From the NCBI RefSeq assembly GCF_006538165.1, contig NZ_BDLU01000037.1, positions 62,001-126,000 of the forward strand: 64,000 nucleotides of DNA, given 5' to 3'. This DNA comes from Komagataeibacter diospyri (GTDB taxonomy: Bacteria > Pseudomonadota > Alphaproteobacteria > Acetobacterales > Acetobacteraceae). The number at the start of each line of letters is the position of its first letter. The first letter of the stretch is position 1. Below the pieces are notes generated by a model. The model searched no databases and was not told the DNA's origin. It worked only from the letters and a program-made list of their open reading frames with translations. Shown here piece after piece: positions 12,667 through 19,364 of the stretch. The translations under genes were made by a program, and so were the position numbers.

Positions 12667-14886
12667 TCAGTCCGCAGACGCGATCTTACGTTCTTCCTGC
12701 GCTTTTTGCAGAACGGTCTGCAAGCTGCCTTCCTTGATCCATTCCTCCAGCTTCTGCGGCGTCATGGGACGGGCGAACAGGTATCCCTGAACCACGTCAC
12801 AGCCAAGCTGACACAGCAGGTCAAGCTGACGCACGGTCTCGACACCTTCAGTCACCACCGTCATGCCAAGGCGCCCGCCAATCCCGATCACCGCCGTGGT
12901 CACGGCCTGTGCGTTGGCGTCGTGCTCCAGGTTCATGATAAAGCTGCGGTCGATCTTGATTTCCGTCAGCGGCAGGCGCGTCAGCCTCGAGAGCGACGAA
13001 TATCCCGTCCCGAAATCATCCATCGACAGGGCGACGCCAAGGTTACGAATGGCCTGCAGGACCATGTTCGTATCCTCGTTTTCCGTCATCATGACGCTTT
13101 CGGTAATCTCGACCGTCAGGCGGTGCGGCTCCAGATTGCTGTCACTGAGCAGGCGGGCAATGAAACCGGGCAGATTACGGTTACGGAAATGCCCCGCCGA
13201 CAGGTTAACCGCTACCGTCGGCACATAAATGCCATGGGCGTCCCATTCCAGGATCTGCTGCACCGCGCGTTCCAGCGACCATGTGCCAATGGCTTCGATC
13301 TGCCCGGTTTCCTCGGCCACGGCAATGAAGCGCGAGGGATAGATGTTGCCCAGTGTCGGGTGGTTCCACCGCGACAGGGCCTCCACACCATACAGCGTAT
13401 TGTTCCGCACATCGATCTGGGGCTGGTAATGCAGGTTGAGCAGGCCCTGCGCCAGCGATTCACGCAGCGCCGACCCCAGCAGCAGCCGGTCCTGTGCCGC
13501 CTTGTTGTCTTCCGAACGCGCAAGGTGGGTCATGCCCAGTCCCGAACGCTTGGCCTGACGCATCGCCTGTTCGGCATAGCTGAGCAGGGATTCGCCGTCC
13601 GGCCCGTTTTCGGGGAACAGGCTGATGCCGATACCCAGGGTCGGCACGATCATGTTGCCACCGATTTCAATCGGCTGCTTTACGCATTCATGCAGCCTGT
13701 CGGCAAATTTCAGTGCGTCTGCCTGGTTCGTATTCGGCACGATAATCAGGAATTCATTCGAACCGGAACGGCTGAGAATATAATTGCTGCGTGAAATACC
13801 CTTCAGCCGTTCGGAAACGGACTTCAGGAACCCATCGCCATTGATATGGCCCAGCGCATCATTGATATCGCGGAAACGGTCGATATCGATCATGTACAGC
13901 GCGAAATGATTGTCACCCGGCTGACCGATCAGGGAGCGGATCACCTTATGCACCGCCGTACGGTTCAGGAAACCGGTCAGCGGGTCATAGTTCGACAGCT
14001 GCGAGATATGCTGGCGCGCCTCGTGCTGCTCGATCAGCACGCCACAGAACGGTACGCAGCTGCTGACGATCTGGGCCGGCCATTCGCCCCGGTTGCGTTC
14101 GGAACGCGAATACAGCGCGAAAATGCCCGTGATGCGCCCGTTGCGGGTACGGATGGCCGATGCCCAGCAATGGTGCAGCCCAAGCGAGATGCCCACGGAA
14201 CGGTAGCTGTCCCACACAATGGTGGTGGCCTCACCCAGATCATTGGCCAGGGCTGCGATATCCGCATCCGTCAGGCGCATTTCTTCCAGGGCCGCGGCAA
14301 AGCGGCGCGGCATGCCGGGACCGGACAGGATGCGCAGGCGGTTCTGTTCATCAAGCAGGATCAGCACGGCGACGGTATTGGGAACCAGCACCTCCACCTC
14401 GCGGCAGACCATGTCGGCCACGTCCTGAATCTGGATCTCGCTGGAAAGGGAGCGGAAAACAGTATTCTGCAGTTCCATCACCCGGCTGCGATGGCCCGCG
14501 CCGGTAATGCCACGCACCATCATCAGGCGATAGGTGCGTCCACCCTTCCCCAGCCGTGCCGCCGTCAGGCTGACCTCGGCGGAGATGTAATCCCCGCTGC
14601 GGTTTTCAAACGTGACCTCACCCGCGACCGGCTCCAGTGCCGGTGCCTCCACGGCGATCGGCAGGCTGCTGTTCCCGACCGATGCGGCCAGAAGTTCACC
14701 CACCGGCCTGCCCGCCAGCGCGCCGGTGTCGTAACCCCACAGCGTTTCAGCCGCAGGGTTGGCATACAGGATCATGTTATGATCATCGATTATGACCATC
14801 CCGTCGCGGGCCTGATTCAGCAGTTCAAAGCTGATGTCAGGAATGGTCTCGGTAGCTGGAAGCGGCTTGGGGTTCTCGGTTTTCAT
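12667..14886 (-). CDS. PAS-GAF-GGDEF-EAL protein, probable c-di-GMP phosphodiesterase
   Basis: This 739-residue protein has four parts: PAS (about 15-125), GAF (about 145-290), GGDEF (about 300-460, from 'YDPLTGFLNR') and EAL (about 480-725). The GGDEF site reads GSNEF, so cyclase activity is doubtful, and the I-site RxxD is absent (RSNY). The EAL domain keeps EALSRW, NLSAGHF, ITESVM, DDFGTGYSS, KIDRSF, TEGVET and QGYLFARP, so it should hydrolyse c-di-GMP. The layout matches PdeA/Dgc proteins that tune cellulose synthase in Komagataeibacter. It is downstream of a close paralogue with an intact GGDEF. The PAS may bind haem or flavin, as in known relatives, but this is not visible here. Confidence 0.9.
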   Translation of the reverse strand: MKTENPKPLPATETIPDISFELLNQARDGMVIIDDHNMILYANPAAETLWGYDTGALAGRPVGELLAASVGNSSLPIAVEAPALEPVAGEVTFENRSGDYISAEVSLTAARLGKGGRTYRLMMVRGITGAGHRSRVMELQNTVFRSLSSEIQIQDVADMVCREVEVLVPNTVAVLILLDEQNRLRILSGPGMPRRFAAALEEMRLTDADIAALANDLGEATTIVWDSYRSVGISLGLHHCWASAIRTRNGRITGIFALYSRSERNRGEWPAQIVSSCVPFCGVLIEQHEARQHISQLSNYDPLTGFLNRTAVHKVIRSLIGQPGDNHFALYMIDIDRFRDINDALGHINGDGFLKSVSERLKGISRSNYILSRSGSNEFLIIVPNTNQADALKFADRLHECVKQPIEIGGNMIVPTLGIGISLFPENGPDGESLLSYAEQAMRQAKRSGLGMTHLARSEDNKAAQDRLLLGSALRESLAQGLLNLHYQPQIDVRNNTLYGVEALSRWNHPTLGNIYPSRFIAVAEETGQIEAIGTWSLERAVQQILEWDAHGIYVPTVAVNLSAGHFRNRNLPGFIARLLSDSNLEPHRLTVEITESVMMTENEDTNMVLQAIRNLGVALSMDDFGTGYSSLSRLTRLPLTEIKIDRSFIMNLEHDANAQAVTTAVIGIGGRLGMTVVTEGVETVRQLDLLCQLGCDVVQGYLFARPMTPQKLEEWIKEGSLQTVLQKAQEERKIASAD

Positions 14887-14906
14887 GGTAATCCAAAATT
14901 ATAAAT

Positions 14907-14956
14907 GCCTGTTTCCAGGCAGGCACCAGGACGGGCGGGCGGTCATGGACCGCCCG
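14907..14956 (-). promoter_or_regulatory. two hairpins between the tandem c-di-GMP genes
   Basis: Five bases after the stop of the upstream gene (14962) is a perfect 9-bp stem with a 3-base loop (14936-14956, CGGGCGGTC arms). A second smaller hairpin (14907-14920, GCCTG/CAGGC) is followed on the minus strand by ATTTATAATTTT. They may attenuate or process the dicistronic mRNA. Confidence 0.5.
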
Positions 14957-14961
14957 GGGAC

Positions 14962-17220
14962 CTATTTTGTCTGCTCGCCTTCATGCGGGACATCGCGCGC
15001 CATGTCGGACACGCGCTTCATGTCCGGCCCTTTCGCCCATTTCAGCAGGGCATCGGGCGCCATGGGACGGGCAAACAGGTAACCCTGCACCACATCACAG
15101 TTCAGCCCCCGCAGCAGCTTGAGCTGCGCCTCCGTCTCGACCCCTTCGGTCACGACGGTCATGTTCAGGCGGTTGCCAATCCCGATCACCGCCGTGGTCA
15201 CGGCCTGCGCATTGGGATCGTGTTCAAGGTTCATGATGAAACTGCGGTCGATCTTGATTTCCGTCAGCGGCAGGCGCGTCAGCCGTGACAGGGATGAATA
15301 ACCCGTCCCGAAATCATCCATCGACAACCCGACGCCAAGGTTACGGATGGCGGCCAGCCCCTCCATCGTGTCCTCGTTTTCGTCCATCATGACGCTTTCG
15401 GTAATCTCGACACACAGGCGTTCAGGCTGCAGCTTGCGCTCCTTGAGGATACGCTCGATCAGCGCAGGCAGGCCACGGTTGCGGAAGTGTGCTGCCGACA
15501 GGTTGACCGAAACCGTAGGGACATGCAGCCCCTGGCGTTCCCAGTCAATGATCTGGCGCGTCGCTTCTTCCAGCGACCACGTGCCGATCGTCTCGATCTG
15601 CCCGGTATCTTCCGCCACCGCGATGAAACGTGAAGGGTAGATGTTGCCCAGCGTCGGATGCTGCCACCGCGACAGGGCCTCCACGCCATACAGCCTGCCC
15701 GTCTTGATATCGACCTGCGGCTGGTAATTCAGGTTGAGCATGCCCTTGGCCAGCGACTCACGCAGCGCGGACCCCAGCAGCAGCCGGTCCTGTGCCGCGC
15801 GGTTATCCGCCGTGCTGGACACACAGTAGCCACCACGCGCCTCCTTCTTGCACCGGCGCATGGCGATTTCGGCATGGCCCAGCAGGGATTCGCCATCCGG
15901 CCCGTTTTCAGGGAACACGCTGATGCCGATGCCAAGCGAGACGACAAGCAGGTTGCCCGCAATCTCGATGGGTTCCTGCATGGCCTTGATCAGGCTTTCG
16001 GCAAAGGCGGATGCCTTTGCTTCATCACTGTCGGGCATGACGATGACGAATTCATCACCGCCCGAACGGCTGAGGATATAGTTGCTGCGTGACATGCCCT
16101 TCAGCCGTTCGGCAATCGCCTTGAGGAAGGCATCGCCATTCTGGTGGCCAAGGGTGTCGTTGATATCGCGGAAACGGTCCACGTCGATCATGAAGACCGC
16201 GAACTGATTGTCACCCGGCCGGTCGATCATCGACTTGATGACCTTGTGGATGGCGGTCCGGTTCAGGAAACCCGTCAGGGAATCATGGTTGGCCAGCTGC
16301 GAGATATGCTGCTGGGCCTCATAATTCTCGATCACGACGCTACAGAACGGCACGCAACCGGTGACGATCTTCTGCGGCCAGTCGCTCAGCTTGTACTGGT
16401 TGCGCGAATACAGCGCGAAAATGCCCGAAATCCGCCCGTTGCGCGACTTGATGGCCGAAGCCCAGCAATTATGCAGCCCCAGCGAGATCCCGAGCGAGCG
16501 GTAGCTGTCCCACACGATGCTGTTCGCTTCGGACAGGTCATTGCCCAGTGCGGCAAGATCCCCTTCGGTCAGGGACATGTTTTCAAGGGCTGCGGCATAA
16601 CGCCGCGGCAGGCCGGGACCGGACAGGATGCTCAGGCGGTTGTTTTCATCCAGCAGGATGATGGCGGACACCGTGTTGGGAACAAAGCTTTCCACTTCAC
16701 GGCAGACGAGGTCGGCTACGTCCTCCACCTGCATGTCATTGGAAATGGCCTGGAATACCGTATTCTGCAGGTCCAGCAGCTTGCGGCGGTGGCTTTCCTC
16801 GGTCACGCCCTTCATGAAGGCCATGTAGTAGCGCTTCTTTTCCGGCCCCAGCAGCGCGGTCGAGATCGACATCTCGCCCGAAATGTAGTCCCCGGCCTTG
16901 TTCTCGAACGTGACTTCGCGTGAGGTGCCGACAATACGGTTCACGCCCGTCTTGCGGTTCTTGTAGATATAGCTGTCATGATCGGCGCGATAGACCGAGG
17001 GAACGAGGCAGCTGACATTGCGGCCAATCACCTCTTCCTCGGTGAAACCCCACAGTTTTTCCGCTGCCGGGTTGAAAAACACGACCTCGTTGCGCTCATT
17101 GATGATCACGACGCCATCCGTTGCCTGCTCCAGCAGCTGGAGGCTGACATCCGCTGTCATGTCCAGCTTGGTGGCAGGCTTGTGGTCGTCAGTCATGGCA
17201 GGCGCTTCGTGGGGGTTCAT
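14962..17220 (-). CDS. PAS-GAF-GGDEF-EAL protein, probable diguanylate cyclase or bifunctional
   Basis: This protein of about 752 residues has the same layout as its downstream neighbour and is similar to it over the whole length. The GGDEF site is intact ('SRSGGDEFVIVM') and has no RxxD inhibitory site. The EAL domain also keeps all motif residues (EALSRW, NLSAAHF, ITESVM, DDFGTGYSS, TEGVET). In characterised Komagataeibacter pairs one protein makes and the other degrades c-di-GMP; the GGDEF difference suggests this one is the cyclase member. The start at 17220 follows GAGAAAG; ATGs at 17241, 17196 and 17292 are alternatives. It is the upstream gene of the pair. Confidence 0.88.
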   Translation of the reverse strand: MNPHEAPAMTDDHKPATKLDMTADVSLQLLEQATDGVVIINERNEVVFFNPAAEKLWGFTEEEVIGRNVSCLVPSVYRADHDSYIYKNRKTGVNRIVGTSREVTFENKAGDYISGEMSISTALLGPEKKRYYMAFMKGVTEESHRRKLLDLQNTVFQAISNDMQVEDVADLVCREVESFVPNTVSAIILLDENNRLSILSGPGLPRRYAAALENMSLTEGDLAALGNDLSEANSIVWDSYRSLGISLGLHNCWASAIKSRNGRISGIFALYSRNQYKLSDWPQKIVTGCVPFCSVVIENYEAQQHISQLANHDSLTGFLNRTAIHKVIKSMIDRPGDNQFAVFMIDVDRFRDINDTLGHQNGDAFLKAIAERLKGMSRSNYILSRSGGDEFVIVMPDSDEAKASAFAESLIKAMQEPIEIAGNLLVVSLGIGISVFPENGPDGESLLGHAEIAMRRCKKEARGGYCVSSTADNRAAQDRLLLGSALRESLAKGMLNLNYQPQVDIKTGRLYGVEALSRWQHPTLGNIYPSRFIAVAEDTGQIETIGTWSLEEATRQIIDWERQGLHVPTVSVNLSAAHFRNRGLPALIERILKERKLQPERLCVEITESVMMDENEDTMEGLAAIRNLGVGLSMDDFGTGYSSLSRLTRLPLTEIKIDRSFIMNLEHDPNAQAVTTAVIGIGNRLNMTVVTEGVETEAQLKLLRGLNCDVVQGYLFARPMAPDALLKWAKGPDMKRVSDMARDVPHEGEQTK

Positions 17221-17261
17221 TACTTTCTCACACAGTTTCATAGGAATATTCCAGCCGGCAA

Positions 17262-19364
17262 TCAGGCGGCGGGATAGAATGACGGGGCGCACGCCGCACG
17301 CATGGGCGTCGCAGCGAACGCCTGTGGCATCGTGGGGGCTGCAGGCGCTGGCACGGTTGCCGCCATGGGGGCATGCGCGGGACGGCCAAGCAGGTAGCCC
17401 TGCCCTTCGTCACACCCTTCGGATGACAGCAGCGCAAGCTGGGCCGGCGTCTCGATCCCCTGCGCCAGAACAGAGACCTGCAGCGCATGACCCGCGATCA
17501 TGACGGAGCGCACCAGTTCGGCCATGGCCGGGTCCGTGCCCACCTGCTGCATGAGGGTGCGGTCGATCTTGATCTTGCCAAAGGGGAATTCGCGCAGCAT
17601 CGACAGGACCGATTTCGGGCCACCGAATTCGTCCAGCGCAAGCCTGACCCCAAGCGCATGCACCTTACGGGCCATGGCCAGGGCACGCGGACGGTCACGC
17701 TGTATCGTTGCCTCGGTAATTTCGATGACAAGGCGGCCCGCGGGCAGGCCAGTGCGTGCAAGGGTCGCCTGCACCGTATCGGCAAAACGCGGCAGCAGGA
17801 ACTGCGATGCGGACATGTTGACCGCGACACGGACATCCCCATCCCAGCCCACCGCAGCCTGGCACGCCTGGTCCAGCACCCATTCACCCAGTTCGATAAT
17901 CAGGCCGTTTTCATAGGCAAGGTCCAGGATTTCCGTGGGGGGAACGCTGCCACGCACCGGATGTTCCCACCGCAGCAGGGCCTCATATCCCGAAACCGCG
18001 CCCGTCGCGACGACAGTCTGCACCTGAAAGAACAGCGAAAGCTGGCCATTGGTCATGGCGTCGCGCAGGTCATCACCCATCGCACGGCGTTCACGCACGT
18101 TCTGGTCCAGCGAGCTTTCATAATACCAGATCGTATGCTGCAGGTCGGTCTTGGCGCGATACATGGCAAGATCGGCACGCGAGATCAGGGTTTCACTGTC
18201 CGTCGCATCAACCGGATAGACCGCAACCCCGATGCTGCCGCCACTGGTCACCATGTAATCATCAATGGGAATGGGCTGGTTCAGCGCCTGCTGGATGCGG
18301 TTTACGAAATCATGCAGTTCCGCCTGATCCGACGTGCGGTGGATGGCTATGAATTCATCCCCCCCCAGGCGAGCCACGAATTCTCCTTCCCCCAGTAGCG
18401 CGCTGAAACGCCCGGCCAGTGTGGTCAGCACGACATCGCCAGCCGCATGGCCACGGGTATCGTTGATTTCCTTAAATTTATTAAGGTCAATACCAATGAC
18501 CGCAAACTGTTCGCCATTCTGGTCAGCCGTTGCGACTTCCTGATTGAGGCGTTCATTGAAGCTTATGCGGTTGGGCAGGCCGGTCAGCGCATCGGACATG
18601 GCCATGCGGTGCAGTTCGTCATACGATTCCTGCCGCACGCTGCCGTCAATGACAAAGCAGGCGATACCGGCAATGATTGTCAGCATCGAACCGGCAATGA
18701 CAGCGAAGCCGATGGCCTGAAACTGTTCATTGTCATGCAGCATCTGCATATGCGGGTGCATGGTGACATGCATGGCCGCCATGCCGGTGAAATGCAGCCC
18801 GGCCACGGCACCCACCATGGCCAGCGTCATTTCGATCTCGCGCCGCAGGCTGACCGGGCGCAACGCCAGCAGCAGGGCCGCGGCGGACAGCCCGATGCCG
18901 ATCAGGACCGACACGATCGCCAGCGGCATGTTCCACACGACGGGCGCATCGATATGGTACGCCGCCATGCCGATATAATGCATGCTGGCGATACCAAGGC
19001 CGAGGATAATTCCCCCCAGCATGCAGCCCCCGCGCCCGCGCAGCCTGACCGCCACCATGACCGCACAGGGCATGGCCACGAACATGGCCACCAGCGAAAG
19101 CACGGTATACTGCGGGTCCAGATTCACGTCGGCGCCGGCATGATAGGCCAGCATGGCCGCAAAATGAGTACACCAGACAAAGCTGGCGCCCGCCATGGCG
19201 GTCAGAAAATACCAGCCGACACGCTGCCTGCCACTGGTTTCAGATACGCGGGCGACCAGTCGCATGGTAATCCATGCACCCAGCACACAAACGATCAGCG
19301 CACCAGAAAGCAGAAAGGGGTTATAAACCCTCAGTTCATAGATATGATTGCTCATTGATTCCAT
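17262..19364 (-). CDS. MHYT-GGDEF-EAL membrane c-di-GMP protein
   Basis: This 700-residue protein has seven predicted membrane helices carrying three MHYT-type motifs (WCTHFAAMLAYH, MHYIGMAAYH, LHFTGMAAMH), thought to bind metal and sense oxygen, CO or NO. A GGDEF domain with intact 'LGGDEF' follows. The EAL domain keeps EALLRWEHP, but the DDFGTGYSS loop reads DEFGGPKSV, so phosphodiesterase activity is questionable and net cyclase activity is likely. The stop is about 40 bases before the start of the PAS-GAF pair on the same strand, so all three may be co-transcribed. The start may be 19364 or the ATG at 19355; neither has a clear ribosome-binding site. Confidence 0.9.
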   Translation of the reverse strand: MESMSNHIYELRVYNPFLLSGALIVCVLGAWITMRLVARVSETSGRQRVGWYFLTAMAGASFVWCTHFAAMLAYHAGADVNLDPQYTVLSLVAMFVAMPCAVMVAVRLRGRGGCMLGGIILGLGIASMHYIGMAAYHIDAPVVWNMPLAIVSVLIGIGLSAAALLLALRPVSLRREIEMTLAMVGAVAGLHFTGMAAMHVTMHPHMQMLHDNEQFQAIGFAVIAGSMLTIIAGIACFVIDGSVRQESYDELHRMAMSDALTGLPNRISFNERLNQEVATADQNGEQFAVIGIDLNKFKEINDTRGHAAGDVVLTTLAGRFSALLGEGEFVARLGGDEFIAIHRTSDQAELHDFVNRIQQALNQPIPIDDYMVTSGGSIGVAVYPVDATDSETLISRADLAMYRAKTDLQHTIWYYESSLDQNVRERRAMGDDLRDAMTNGQLSLFFQVQTVVATGAVSGYEALLRWEHPVRGSVPPTEILDLAYENGLIIELGEWVLDQACQAAVGWDGDVRVAVNMSASQFLLPRFADTVQATLARTGLPAGRLVIEITEATIQRDRPRALAMARKVHALGVRLALDEFGGPKSVLSMLREFPFGKIKIDRTLMQQVGTDPAMAELVRSVMIAGHALQVSVLAQGIETPAQLALLSSEGCDEGQGYLLGRPAHAPMAATVPAPAAPTMPQAFAATPMRAACAPSFYPAA

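Follow-up and report, generated by a model that had tools for sequence, protein, structure and literature searches.

Background

Three cdg operons have been described in Komagataeibacter xylinus; PDEA1 is a heme protein whose activity is suppressed by oxygen, and DGC2 is a flavin adenine dinucleotide (FAD) protein (PMC6559022, PMC12405394). In the dosC-dosP system of Escherichia coli a cyclase and a phosphodiesterase form a couple with gas sensors. MucR and NbdA of Pseudomonas aeruginosa have the domain order MHYT-GGDEF-EAL (PMC11347149). In the present work, three adjacent genes for GGDEF-EAL proteins were analyzed in a 64,000-nucleotide window of Komagataeibacter diospyri (the whole stretch of DNA under analysis; contig NZ_BDLU01000037.1, positions 62,001 to 126,000). 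In this cellulose-making vinegar bacterium they appear to form a conserved on/off set, tuned by gas, for cyclic diguanosine monophosphate (c-di-GMP). Based on residues, domain order, conservation, synteny and relative constraint, the locus is read as an accessory Komagataeibacter operon for c-di-GMP turnover that combines an MHYT cyclase with two phosphodiesterases, one having a heme PAS and the other lacking the heme ligands (rough probability 0.58).

The three open reading frames had been reported in an initial annotation of this DNA and were confirmed in place. All lie on the minus strand and are given here in order of transcription; the two PAS proteins are called upstream and downstream accordingly.

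17262..19364, minus strand: MHYT-GGDEF-EAL protein, 700 amino acids, first gene; candidate diguanylate cyclase, EAL domain dead by motif
14962..17220, minus strand: upstream PAS-GAF-GGDEF-EAL protein, 752 amino acids from the ATG at 17220; PDEA1-type, heme ligands kept
12667..14886, minus strand: downstream PAS-GAF-GSNEF-EAL protein, 739 amino acids; candidate phosphodiesterase that lacks both the cyclase site and the heme ligands

Pfam matches were PAS, GGDEF and EAL in both tandem PAS proteins, and MHYT (two stretches), GGDEF and EAL in the MHYT protein. The start of the upstream PAS gene is uncertain, with ATG 17241 or GTG 17292 also possible. From the MHYT stop to ATG 17220 there are 41 bases, and the gap between the two PAS genes is 75 bases. 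These distances fit a single operon, in which the genes may be co-transcribed.

The set resembles cdg1-3 of K. xylinus in that a PDEA1-type PAS-GAF-GGDEF-EAL protein accompanies a candidate cyclase whose GGDEF is intact and whose EAL is degenerate, and in that both PAS proteins group with cdg pde members by tree. It differs in its cyclase candidate, a membrane MHYT protein of another clade encoded by the first gene, and in having two PDEA-type proteins, one of them without heme ligands. The order of pdeA directly upstream of dgc was not found, nor was a cyclase of the dgc clade present in the set. With dosC-dosP it shares the pairing of cyclase and phosphodiesterase with gas sensors, and by sequence both PAS proteins matched DosP chains best in the PDB. 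Their scores against the DosP equivalog NF008467 (NCBIfam) were 558.5 and 648.8 bits, below the cut-off of 857 bits, as were those of three pde controls (686.9-703.6 bits). The differences from dosC-dosP are a Thr instead of Met at the place of DosP Met95 in the upstream protein, a MHYT cyclase candidate in place of DosC, and the extra protein without heme ligands. The domain order of the MHYT protein is that of MucR and NbdA, but its EAL domain is degenerate in all 17 readable orthologues. The window set is a variant of known cyclase/phosphodiesterase couples and not a new type of system.

The candidate cyclase

The following features of the MHYT protein were located.

18636..19331, minus strand: MHYT membrane sensor domain, with motifs WCTHFAAML, SMHYIGMAA and GLHFTGMAA
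18351..18365, minus strand: GGDEF motif, intact
17607..17636, minus strand: LDEFGGPKSV, degenerate EAL loop-6 motif (MDDFGTGYSS in the PAS proteins)
17451..17465, minus strand: AQGIE, in which Gln replaces the catalytic-base Glu of the EGVE motif

The combination of GGDEF with DEFGGPKSV, already seen in the initial annotation, is present. Both the GG[DE]EF motif and the FK-IND core of active cyclases were found, so that cyclase activity is predicted, and GGDEF is kept in 17/17 readable orthologues (the gene of genome G012 is split there). An active EAL domain has the catalytic-base Glu of EGVE and both Asp of DDFG; here the Glu has become Gln (QGIE in place of EGVE), the second Asp is missing, and loop 6 is lost as well. 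QGIE was read in 17/17 orthologues, and the second Asp is replaced in the same number (15 Glu, 1 Gln, 1 Ala). In the orthologue of G014, VNMS is also without its Asn and QGYL without its QG. EAL domains without the EGVE catalytic-base residue are predicted to be inactive (PMC12900916), and the inactivity of the EAL domain of a K. xylinus diguanylate cyclase was attributed to a degenerate loop six (PMC10333796). Because it resembles the dgc proteins in its intact GGDEF and degenerate EAL, the MHYT protein is probably the cyclase of the set, with a non-hydrolysing EAL domain, and probably not the mere sensor that it had been taken for.

The best PDB matches of the MHYT protein were 5m3c_A ("Diguanylate cyclase") and 4rnh_A ("Motility regulator"); the MucR EAL chain 5m1t_A was also among its matches (E 1.6e-52). 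In the sensor domain, 18/18 orthologues keep the His in each of the three motifs, together with the Met in motifs two and three. With conserved Met/His motifs in three transmembrane segments, the domain has the features of a MHYT gas sensor, and binding of copper and gas is predicted. Sensing of carbon monoxide and oxygen by MHYT with copper is described for CoxC (PMC11347149). The passages naming both MHYT and Komagataeibacter, which represent part of such literature, contained no link between the two.

The candidate phosphodiesterases

In the upstream PAS protein, the following features were assigned.

16963..16992, minus strand: PAS segment YRADHDSYIY, His aligned to DosP His77
16912..16932, minus strand: PAS segment VGTSREV, Thr at the DosP Met95 place and Arg at the DosP Arg97 place
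16312..16809, minus strand: GAF domain, approximate bounds
16048..16062, minus strand: GGDEF motif

His77 and Arg97 of DosP are presumed here to be heme residues, in line with titles cited in PMC4263535. The proximal His and the distal Arg of a heme PAS were found in 18/18 readable upstream orthologues, which is the residue pattern expected of a heme PAS. The metal and catalytic motifs of EAL are complete in 16/16 readable orthologues, and phosphodiesterase activity is predicted; the loci of G011, G014 and G016 stop before the EAL domain and were left out of this count. The cyclase motif reads GGDEF in 18 of 19 orthologues and GADEF in the remaining one (G012), where the EAL motifs are intact. 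The upstream protein is likely a phosphodiesterase, and it could still be bifunctional.

No Pfam match to GAF was obtained in the PAS proteins. A model of the stretch that links PAS to GGDEF in the upstream protein (mean predicted local distance difference test, pLDDT, 89.1) matched GAF domains in the PDB, DosP included, with template modelling (TM) scores by query length of 0.52-0.67 among the matches listed (best 50). The label PAS-GAF is therefore right.

The corresponding features of the downstream protein, named here by its GSNEF motif, are listed below.

14614..14682, minus strand: PAS segment SVGNSSLPIAVEAPALEPVAGEV, heme His and distal Arg missing
13750..13764, minus strand: GSNEF motif
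12994..13023, minus strand: MDDFGTGYSS, intact EAL motif

The residues aligned to DosP His77 and Arg97 are missing in this protein, whereas its upstream partner retains both. In the aligned PAS segment of its orthologues, no His was present in 14/16 and no Arg in 15/16, and the residue pattern of a heme PAS is thus absent. The cyclase motif reads GSNEF in 6/16 and GPNEF in 10/16 orthologues. N occupies the third place in all 16, where an active cyclase has D or E; the D-to-N change is therefore fixed, while the second Gly drifts. EAL motifs are complete in 15/15 fully readable orthologues (G002 is cut), and activity is predicted from them. The GSNEF protein is probably a phosphodiesterase without heme ligands. 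A model of the full-length protein (predicted template modelling score, pTM, 0.39) was used only for the low confidence at model residues 66-80.

Much of the initial annotation of the tandem pair holds: two PAS-GAF-GGDEF-EAL proteins that differ in GGDEF and GSNEF, both with full EAL motifs, were read in the sequences, the GAF domain being supported by the model of the upstream protein. The complementary decay of domains is real and goes further than described, as the GSNEF protein has also lost heme-pocket residues. This loss and the QGIE change of the MHYT protein are additions of the present analysis. The place of the RxxD site reads RSNY, RSNY and GEGE in the three window proteins, in agreement with its reported absence. 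This is not special to the locus, since the three canonical-type dgc proteins of this genome also lack RxxD (SPQD, HPDD, GSQD).

Family placement

By tree, both PAS proteins of the window fell into one group of 30 rows together with PDEA1-type (DosP-like) phosphodiesterases. The MHYT proteins of the window contig (C37) and of C66 formed their own clade, and the three dgc proteins formed another clade without window proteins. Tree placement and domain order assign both PAS proteins to the PDEA1/DosP-like family. The GGDEF core starts with FR instead of FK in 27/27 PDEA-type rows, without variation; the MHYT proteins of C37 and C66 have FK at this place, as have the three dgc proteins and two solved chains, 5m3c_A and 4rnh_A. 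The Lys of FK matters for GGDEF catalysis. The PDEA1-type protein encoded by cdg1 in this genome retains RSGGDEF along with a full EAL domain, and GGDEF is for this reason no mark of a cyclase in the PDEA1 family.

The window locus was rejected as a canonical cdg operon, since cdg1 maps to C14 and two further pairs of pde and dgc genes to C40 and C54. At C14, pde and dgc have neighbours that we take from their sequences to be crp/fnr-like and Rrf2-like, and the pairs at C40 and C54 are alike. In K. xylinus E25, cdg1 likewise has Crp/Fnr-like and Rrf2-like neighbours (PMC6667682). We infer by likeness that C40 and C54 are cdg2 and cdg3. The canonical-type dgc genes have intact GGDEF and degenerate EAL motifs, which read DDFGQATLP in cdg1, with the same pattern at C40 and C54. 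Control of cellulose synthase, to which the initial annotation had linked pairs of this kind, is stated for the canonical cdg1-3 (PMC6559022), but those are other loci in this genome, and no cellulose synthase match was found on the contig of the window.

In total, 21 GGDEF matches were found in the genome, two of them parts of one split frame, corresponding to 19 GGDEF-EAL frames plus one split. The split match covers two overlapping frames at G000:C14:118681-119156 (L039) and looks like a broken or frameshifted GGDEF-EAL gene. A second pair of MHYT-GGDEF-EAL and PAS-GAF-GGDEF-EAL genes is present at C66 (L030:2407-6811), with GGDEF, DDFGTGYSS and EG[IV]E in both; its MHYT gene was matched in 10/19 genomes of the genus and in Novacetimonas. 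Two further tandem pairs, L031:2578-7087 and L032:3225-7757, carry SSADEF and GGDDF, each near a gene that is presumably resolvase-like by its sequence. These genes may hint at copying of the pairs.

In the literature, counts of GGDEF/EAL proteins reach 17 per genome, and the network was called patchy (PMC6528568). For K. intermedius, nine PDE/DGC loci were reported, seven of them annotated as dosP, with an insertion-sequence junction between a DGC/PDE gene and dosP_3 (PMC13068021, 2026). That paper cites a 2025 K. xylinus knockout study of tandem GGDEF-EAL genes, which may cover the genes described here.

Constraint on the domains

Ratios of nonsynonymous to synonymous substitution (dN/dS) were calculated by the NG86 method with an own script and are given as medians, with bootstrap ranges in brackets; the pairs share the window gene and are not independent of each other. 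Median dS was 0.48-1.19. Identical codon sets were dropped, as were matches above 99.5% identity, below a set identity threshold or with less than 88% domain coverage. Loci of one species from two collections are possibly both included. Bootstraps were based on at most 15 orthologues, with only 4-5 for C24_b, C58_b and C40_pde. For dgc genes the ratios cover GGDEF; their EAL domains were left out because the loci were too short.

All domain medians were below 0.2. In the MHYT protein, GGDEF (0.074; 0.051-0.082) was the tightest part, with 0.191 for both EAL (0.159-0.219) and the MHYT domain (0.158-0.216). Its sister at C66, which has an intact EAL, gave 0.049 for GGDEF, 0.062 for EAL and 0.083 for the N-terminal part. 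The EAL contrast between these two MHYT proteins (0.191 vs 0.062) is the most solid of the constraint results. The GSNEF protein gave 0.172 for PAS, 0.048 for GAF, 0.056 for GGDEF and 0.020 (0.014-0.026) for EAL. Values for the upstream protein were 0.029 (0.012-0.033) for PAS, 0.024 for GAF, 0.071 for GGDEF and 0.075 (0.060-0.088) for EAL. For comparison, cdg1 pdeA1 gave 0.037, 0.035, 0.069 and 0.025 in the same order. Six paralogues that were measured had 0.037-0.190 for PAS and 0.018-0.105 for EAL, and only the PAS of the upstream protein lay (slightly) outside these ranges. For the three genes of the window, values were similar in an earlier run on 11 loci.

Distribution and history

Eleven loci at 90-96% (L001-L011) were all from Komagataeibacter. 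Among 19 genomes of this genus, the MHYT gene was found in 18 (once split into two frames), the upstream PAS gene in all 19 (in G009 as a C-terminal piece at a contig end only), and the GSNEF gene, at an identity of at least 89%, in 16. All three genes are adjacent on one contig in 16/19 genomes, and the MHYT gene adjoins the upstream PAS gene in every one of the 18 genomes that have it. In G012 (L057, L073), the MHYT gene is in two frames, no GSNEF gene was found, and the remaining PAS protein reads GADEF; this genome may be losing the three-gene set. A survey of 200 genomes of the family, in which the best 5 candidates per genome were scored, matched the GSNEF protein at E 1e-150 in 8 genomes from 3 of 102 genera.

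In four loci from Novacetimonas and Gluconacetobacter entanii (L012, L013, L014, L018), the same genome place is occupied by one PAS gene, whose motif reads GANEF and which has no MHYT neighbour. A cytochrome b561 gene lies on one side in 4/4 of these loci, and a gene that we assume to be RNase E/G-like on the other side in 3/4. The GSNEF proteins group with these GANEF proteins (support 96/94 and 95/94 in two trees), and a recent tandem duplication of the PAS genes was rejected on this ground. Topologies joining the GANEF and GGDEF groups, or the two Komagataeibacter groups, were only moderately rejected by the approximately unbiased test (p-AU 0.032 and 0.048). Support for GSNEF, GANEF and GGDEF groups as one clade was 60/59. 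The heme-PAS His is retained in the GANEF proteins, 2/2 in one comparison and 3/3 in another. An old duplication is likely, with the cyclase site lost before the genera separated; the heme ligands were then likely lost later, in Komagataeibacter, because the GANEF proteins keep the His.

A small stem-loop was noted in the gap between the PAS genes.

14904..14927, minus strand: small stem-loop immediately ahead of the GSNEF gene, within the 75-base gap; core CCTGnnTGGAAACAGG

Its core was found in 12/12 aligned gaps and as a single exact copy genome-wide. A terminator between the PAS genes was rejected, as terminator-like matches numbered 7 against 6.6 expected by chance. A promoter scan gave 5 matches against 3.5 by chance.

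Proposed mechanism and alternatives

According to the favoured reading, the membrane MHYT protein would make c-di-GMP by its GGDEF domain and be tuned by a diatomic gas at copper on the MHYT motifs; its EAL domain would do no hydrolysis. The middle protein would be a PDEA1/DosP-type phosphodiesterase with a heme PAS reading oxygen, and cyclase activity may remain in it. The GSNEF protein would act as a phosphodiesterase with a GGDEF domain unable to cyclise guanosine triphosphate (GTP) and a PAS without the usual heme ligands. It would run independently of heme, perhaps under the control of its GAF domain or of GTP bound to the dead GGDEF domain. The three proteins would jointly provide a gas-dependent balance above a heme-independent drain; activities, ligands and co-transcription are predicted, as are the target and a possible link to cellulose. 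A set that makes and degrades c-di-GMP and has gas-sensing parts, as initially annotated, is supported; the roles had probably been misassigned, as the PAS pair groups with PDEA1-type phosphodiesterases.

Several observations weigh against this turnover operon. GGDEF is less constrained in cdg1 dgc (0.099) and C54 dgc (0.142) than in cdg1 pdeA1 (0.069). Constrained GGDEF was for this reason rejected as a cyclase mark and is weak evidence for a MHYT cyclase, the argument for which rests on its EAL domain and its motifs. In the upstream protein, GGDEF and EAL are about equally constrained (0.071, 0.075), which gives no preference for a pure phosphodiesterase over a bifunctional enzyme; in cdg1 pdeA1, by comparison, EAL is clearly the tighter of the two (0.025 vs 0.069). 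Relaxed PAS domains also occur in C54_pde (0.190), C66_PAS (0.188) and C40_pde (0.151), all with the His kept. Relaxation as such was therefore rejected as a sign of heme loss, which is argued from the residues. Among the 16 GSNEF orthologues, a His occurs within ENGHLPF in two (G008, G011), and the Arg is retained in one (G016). The GSNEF gene is absent from 3/19 genomes (G004, G009, G012); among these three, the MHYT gene is split in one genome and was not matched in another. The tree carries a long-branch warning for the dgc and MHYT rows, the gene order with the cyclase candidate first is unlike pdeA-dgc, and changes in the GGDEF motif only partly predict loss of cyclase activity (PMC12900916).

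The best surviving alternative, which is nevertheless unlikely, takes the upstream protein as a cyclase or bifunctional enzyme, the GSNEF protein as the phosphodiesterase and the MHYT protein mainly as a sensor. It would account for GGDEF in 18/19 upstream orthologues and for a GGDEF domain as constrained as the EAL domain, and bifunctional GGDEF-EAL proteins such as CdgB are known (PMC9683572, PMC11347149). The placement with PDEA1-type phosphodiesterases, the FR in 27/27 family rows and the EAL site complete in 16/16 readable orthologues argue against it, as do the GADEF of G012 beside intact EAL motifs and the complete GGDEF site of the MHYT protein.

It is distinctly unlikely that the PAS proteins form a heteromer that splits the jobs of one enzyme, with the upstream protein as heme sensor, the GSNEF protein as phosphodiesterase and the membrane MHYT cyclase docked to both as a local source of the signal, so that the three would make up an oxygen-switched signalling patch instead of free enzymes. 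The reciprocal constraint (0.029 vs 0.172 for PAS, 0.075 vs 0.020 for EAL) agrees with such a division and is no proof of it.

More doubtful still is a locus that acts by contacts and not by bulk turnover, in which the dead GGDEF (GSNEF) and EAL (QGIE) domains are modules for binding GTP or c-di-GMP or for protein contact. Purifying selection on the GSNEF-bearing domain (0.056) shows that it is not simply rotting, but the EAL domain of the MHYT protein is relaxed (0.191), unlike a conserved receptor, and EAL is the tightest part of the GSNEF protein (0.020), which points to catalysis. Drift of an expanded family, with members that are neighbours by history and have no joint function, would suit the 19 GGDEF-EAL frames plus one split, the several tandem pairs, the varied motifs (SSADEF, GGDDF, degenerate EALs) and the patchy network of the literature (PMC6528568), but is very improbable given the adjacency in 16/19 genomes, the MHYT gene beside the upstream PAS gene in 18/18, the second MHYT-PAS pair at C66 and domain medians of dN/dS all below 0.2.

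Significance

For the PDEA1/DosP-like family, the results are a warning that the GGDEF motif is no basis for reading cyclase activity. The locus offers a natural comparison of two linked, DosP-like candidate phosphodiesterases that differ in whether they have heme ligands, next to a candidate cyclase in the membrane whose EAL is degenerate. It could reveal whether the oxygen response has a floor that is set by a phosphodiesterase acting independently of heme.

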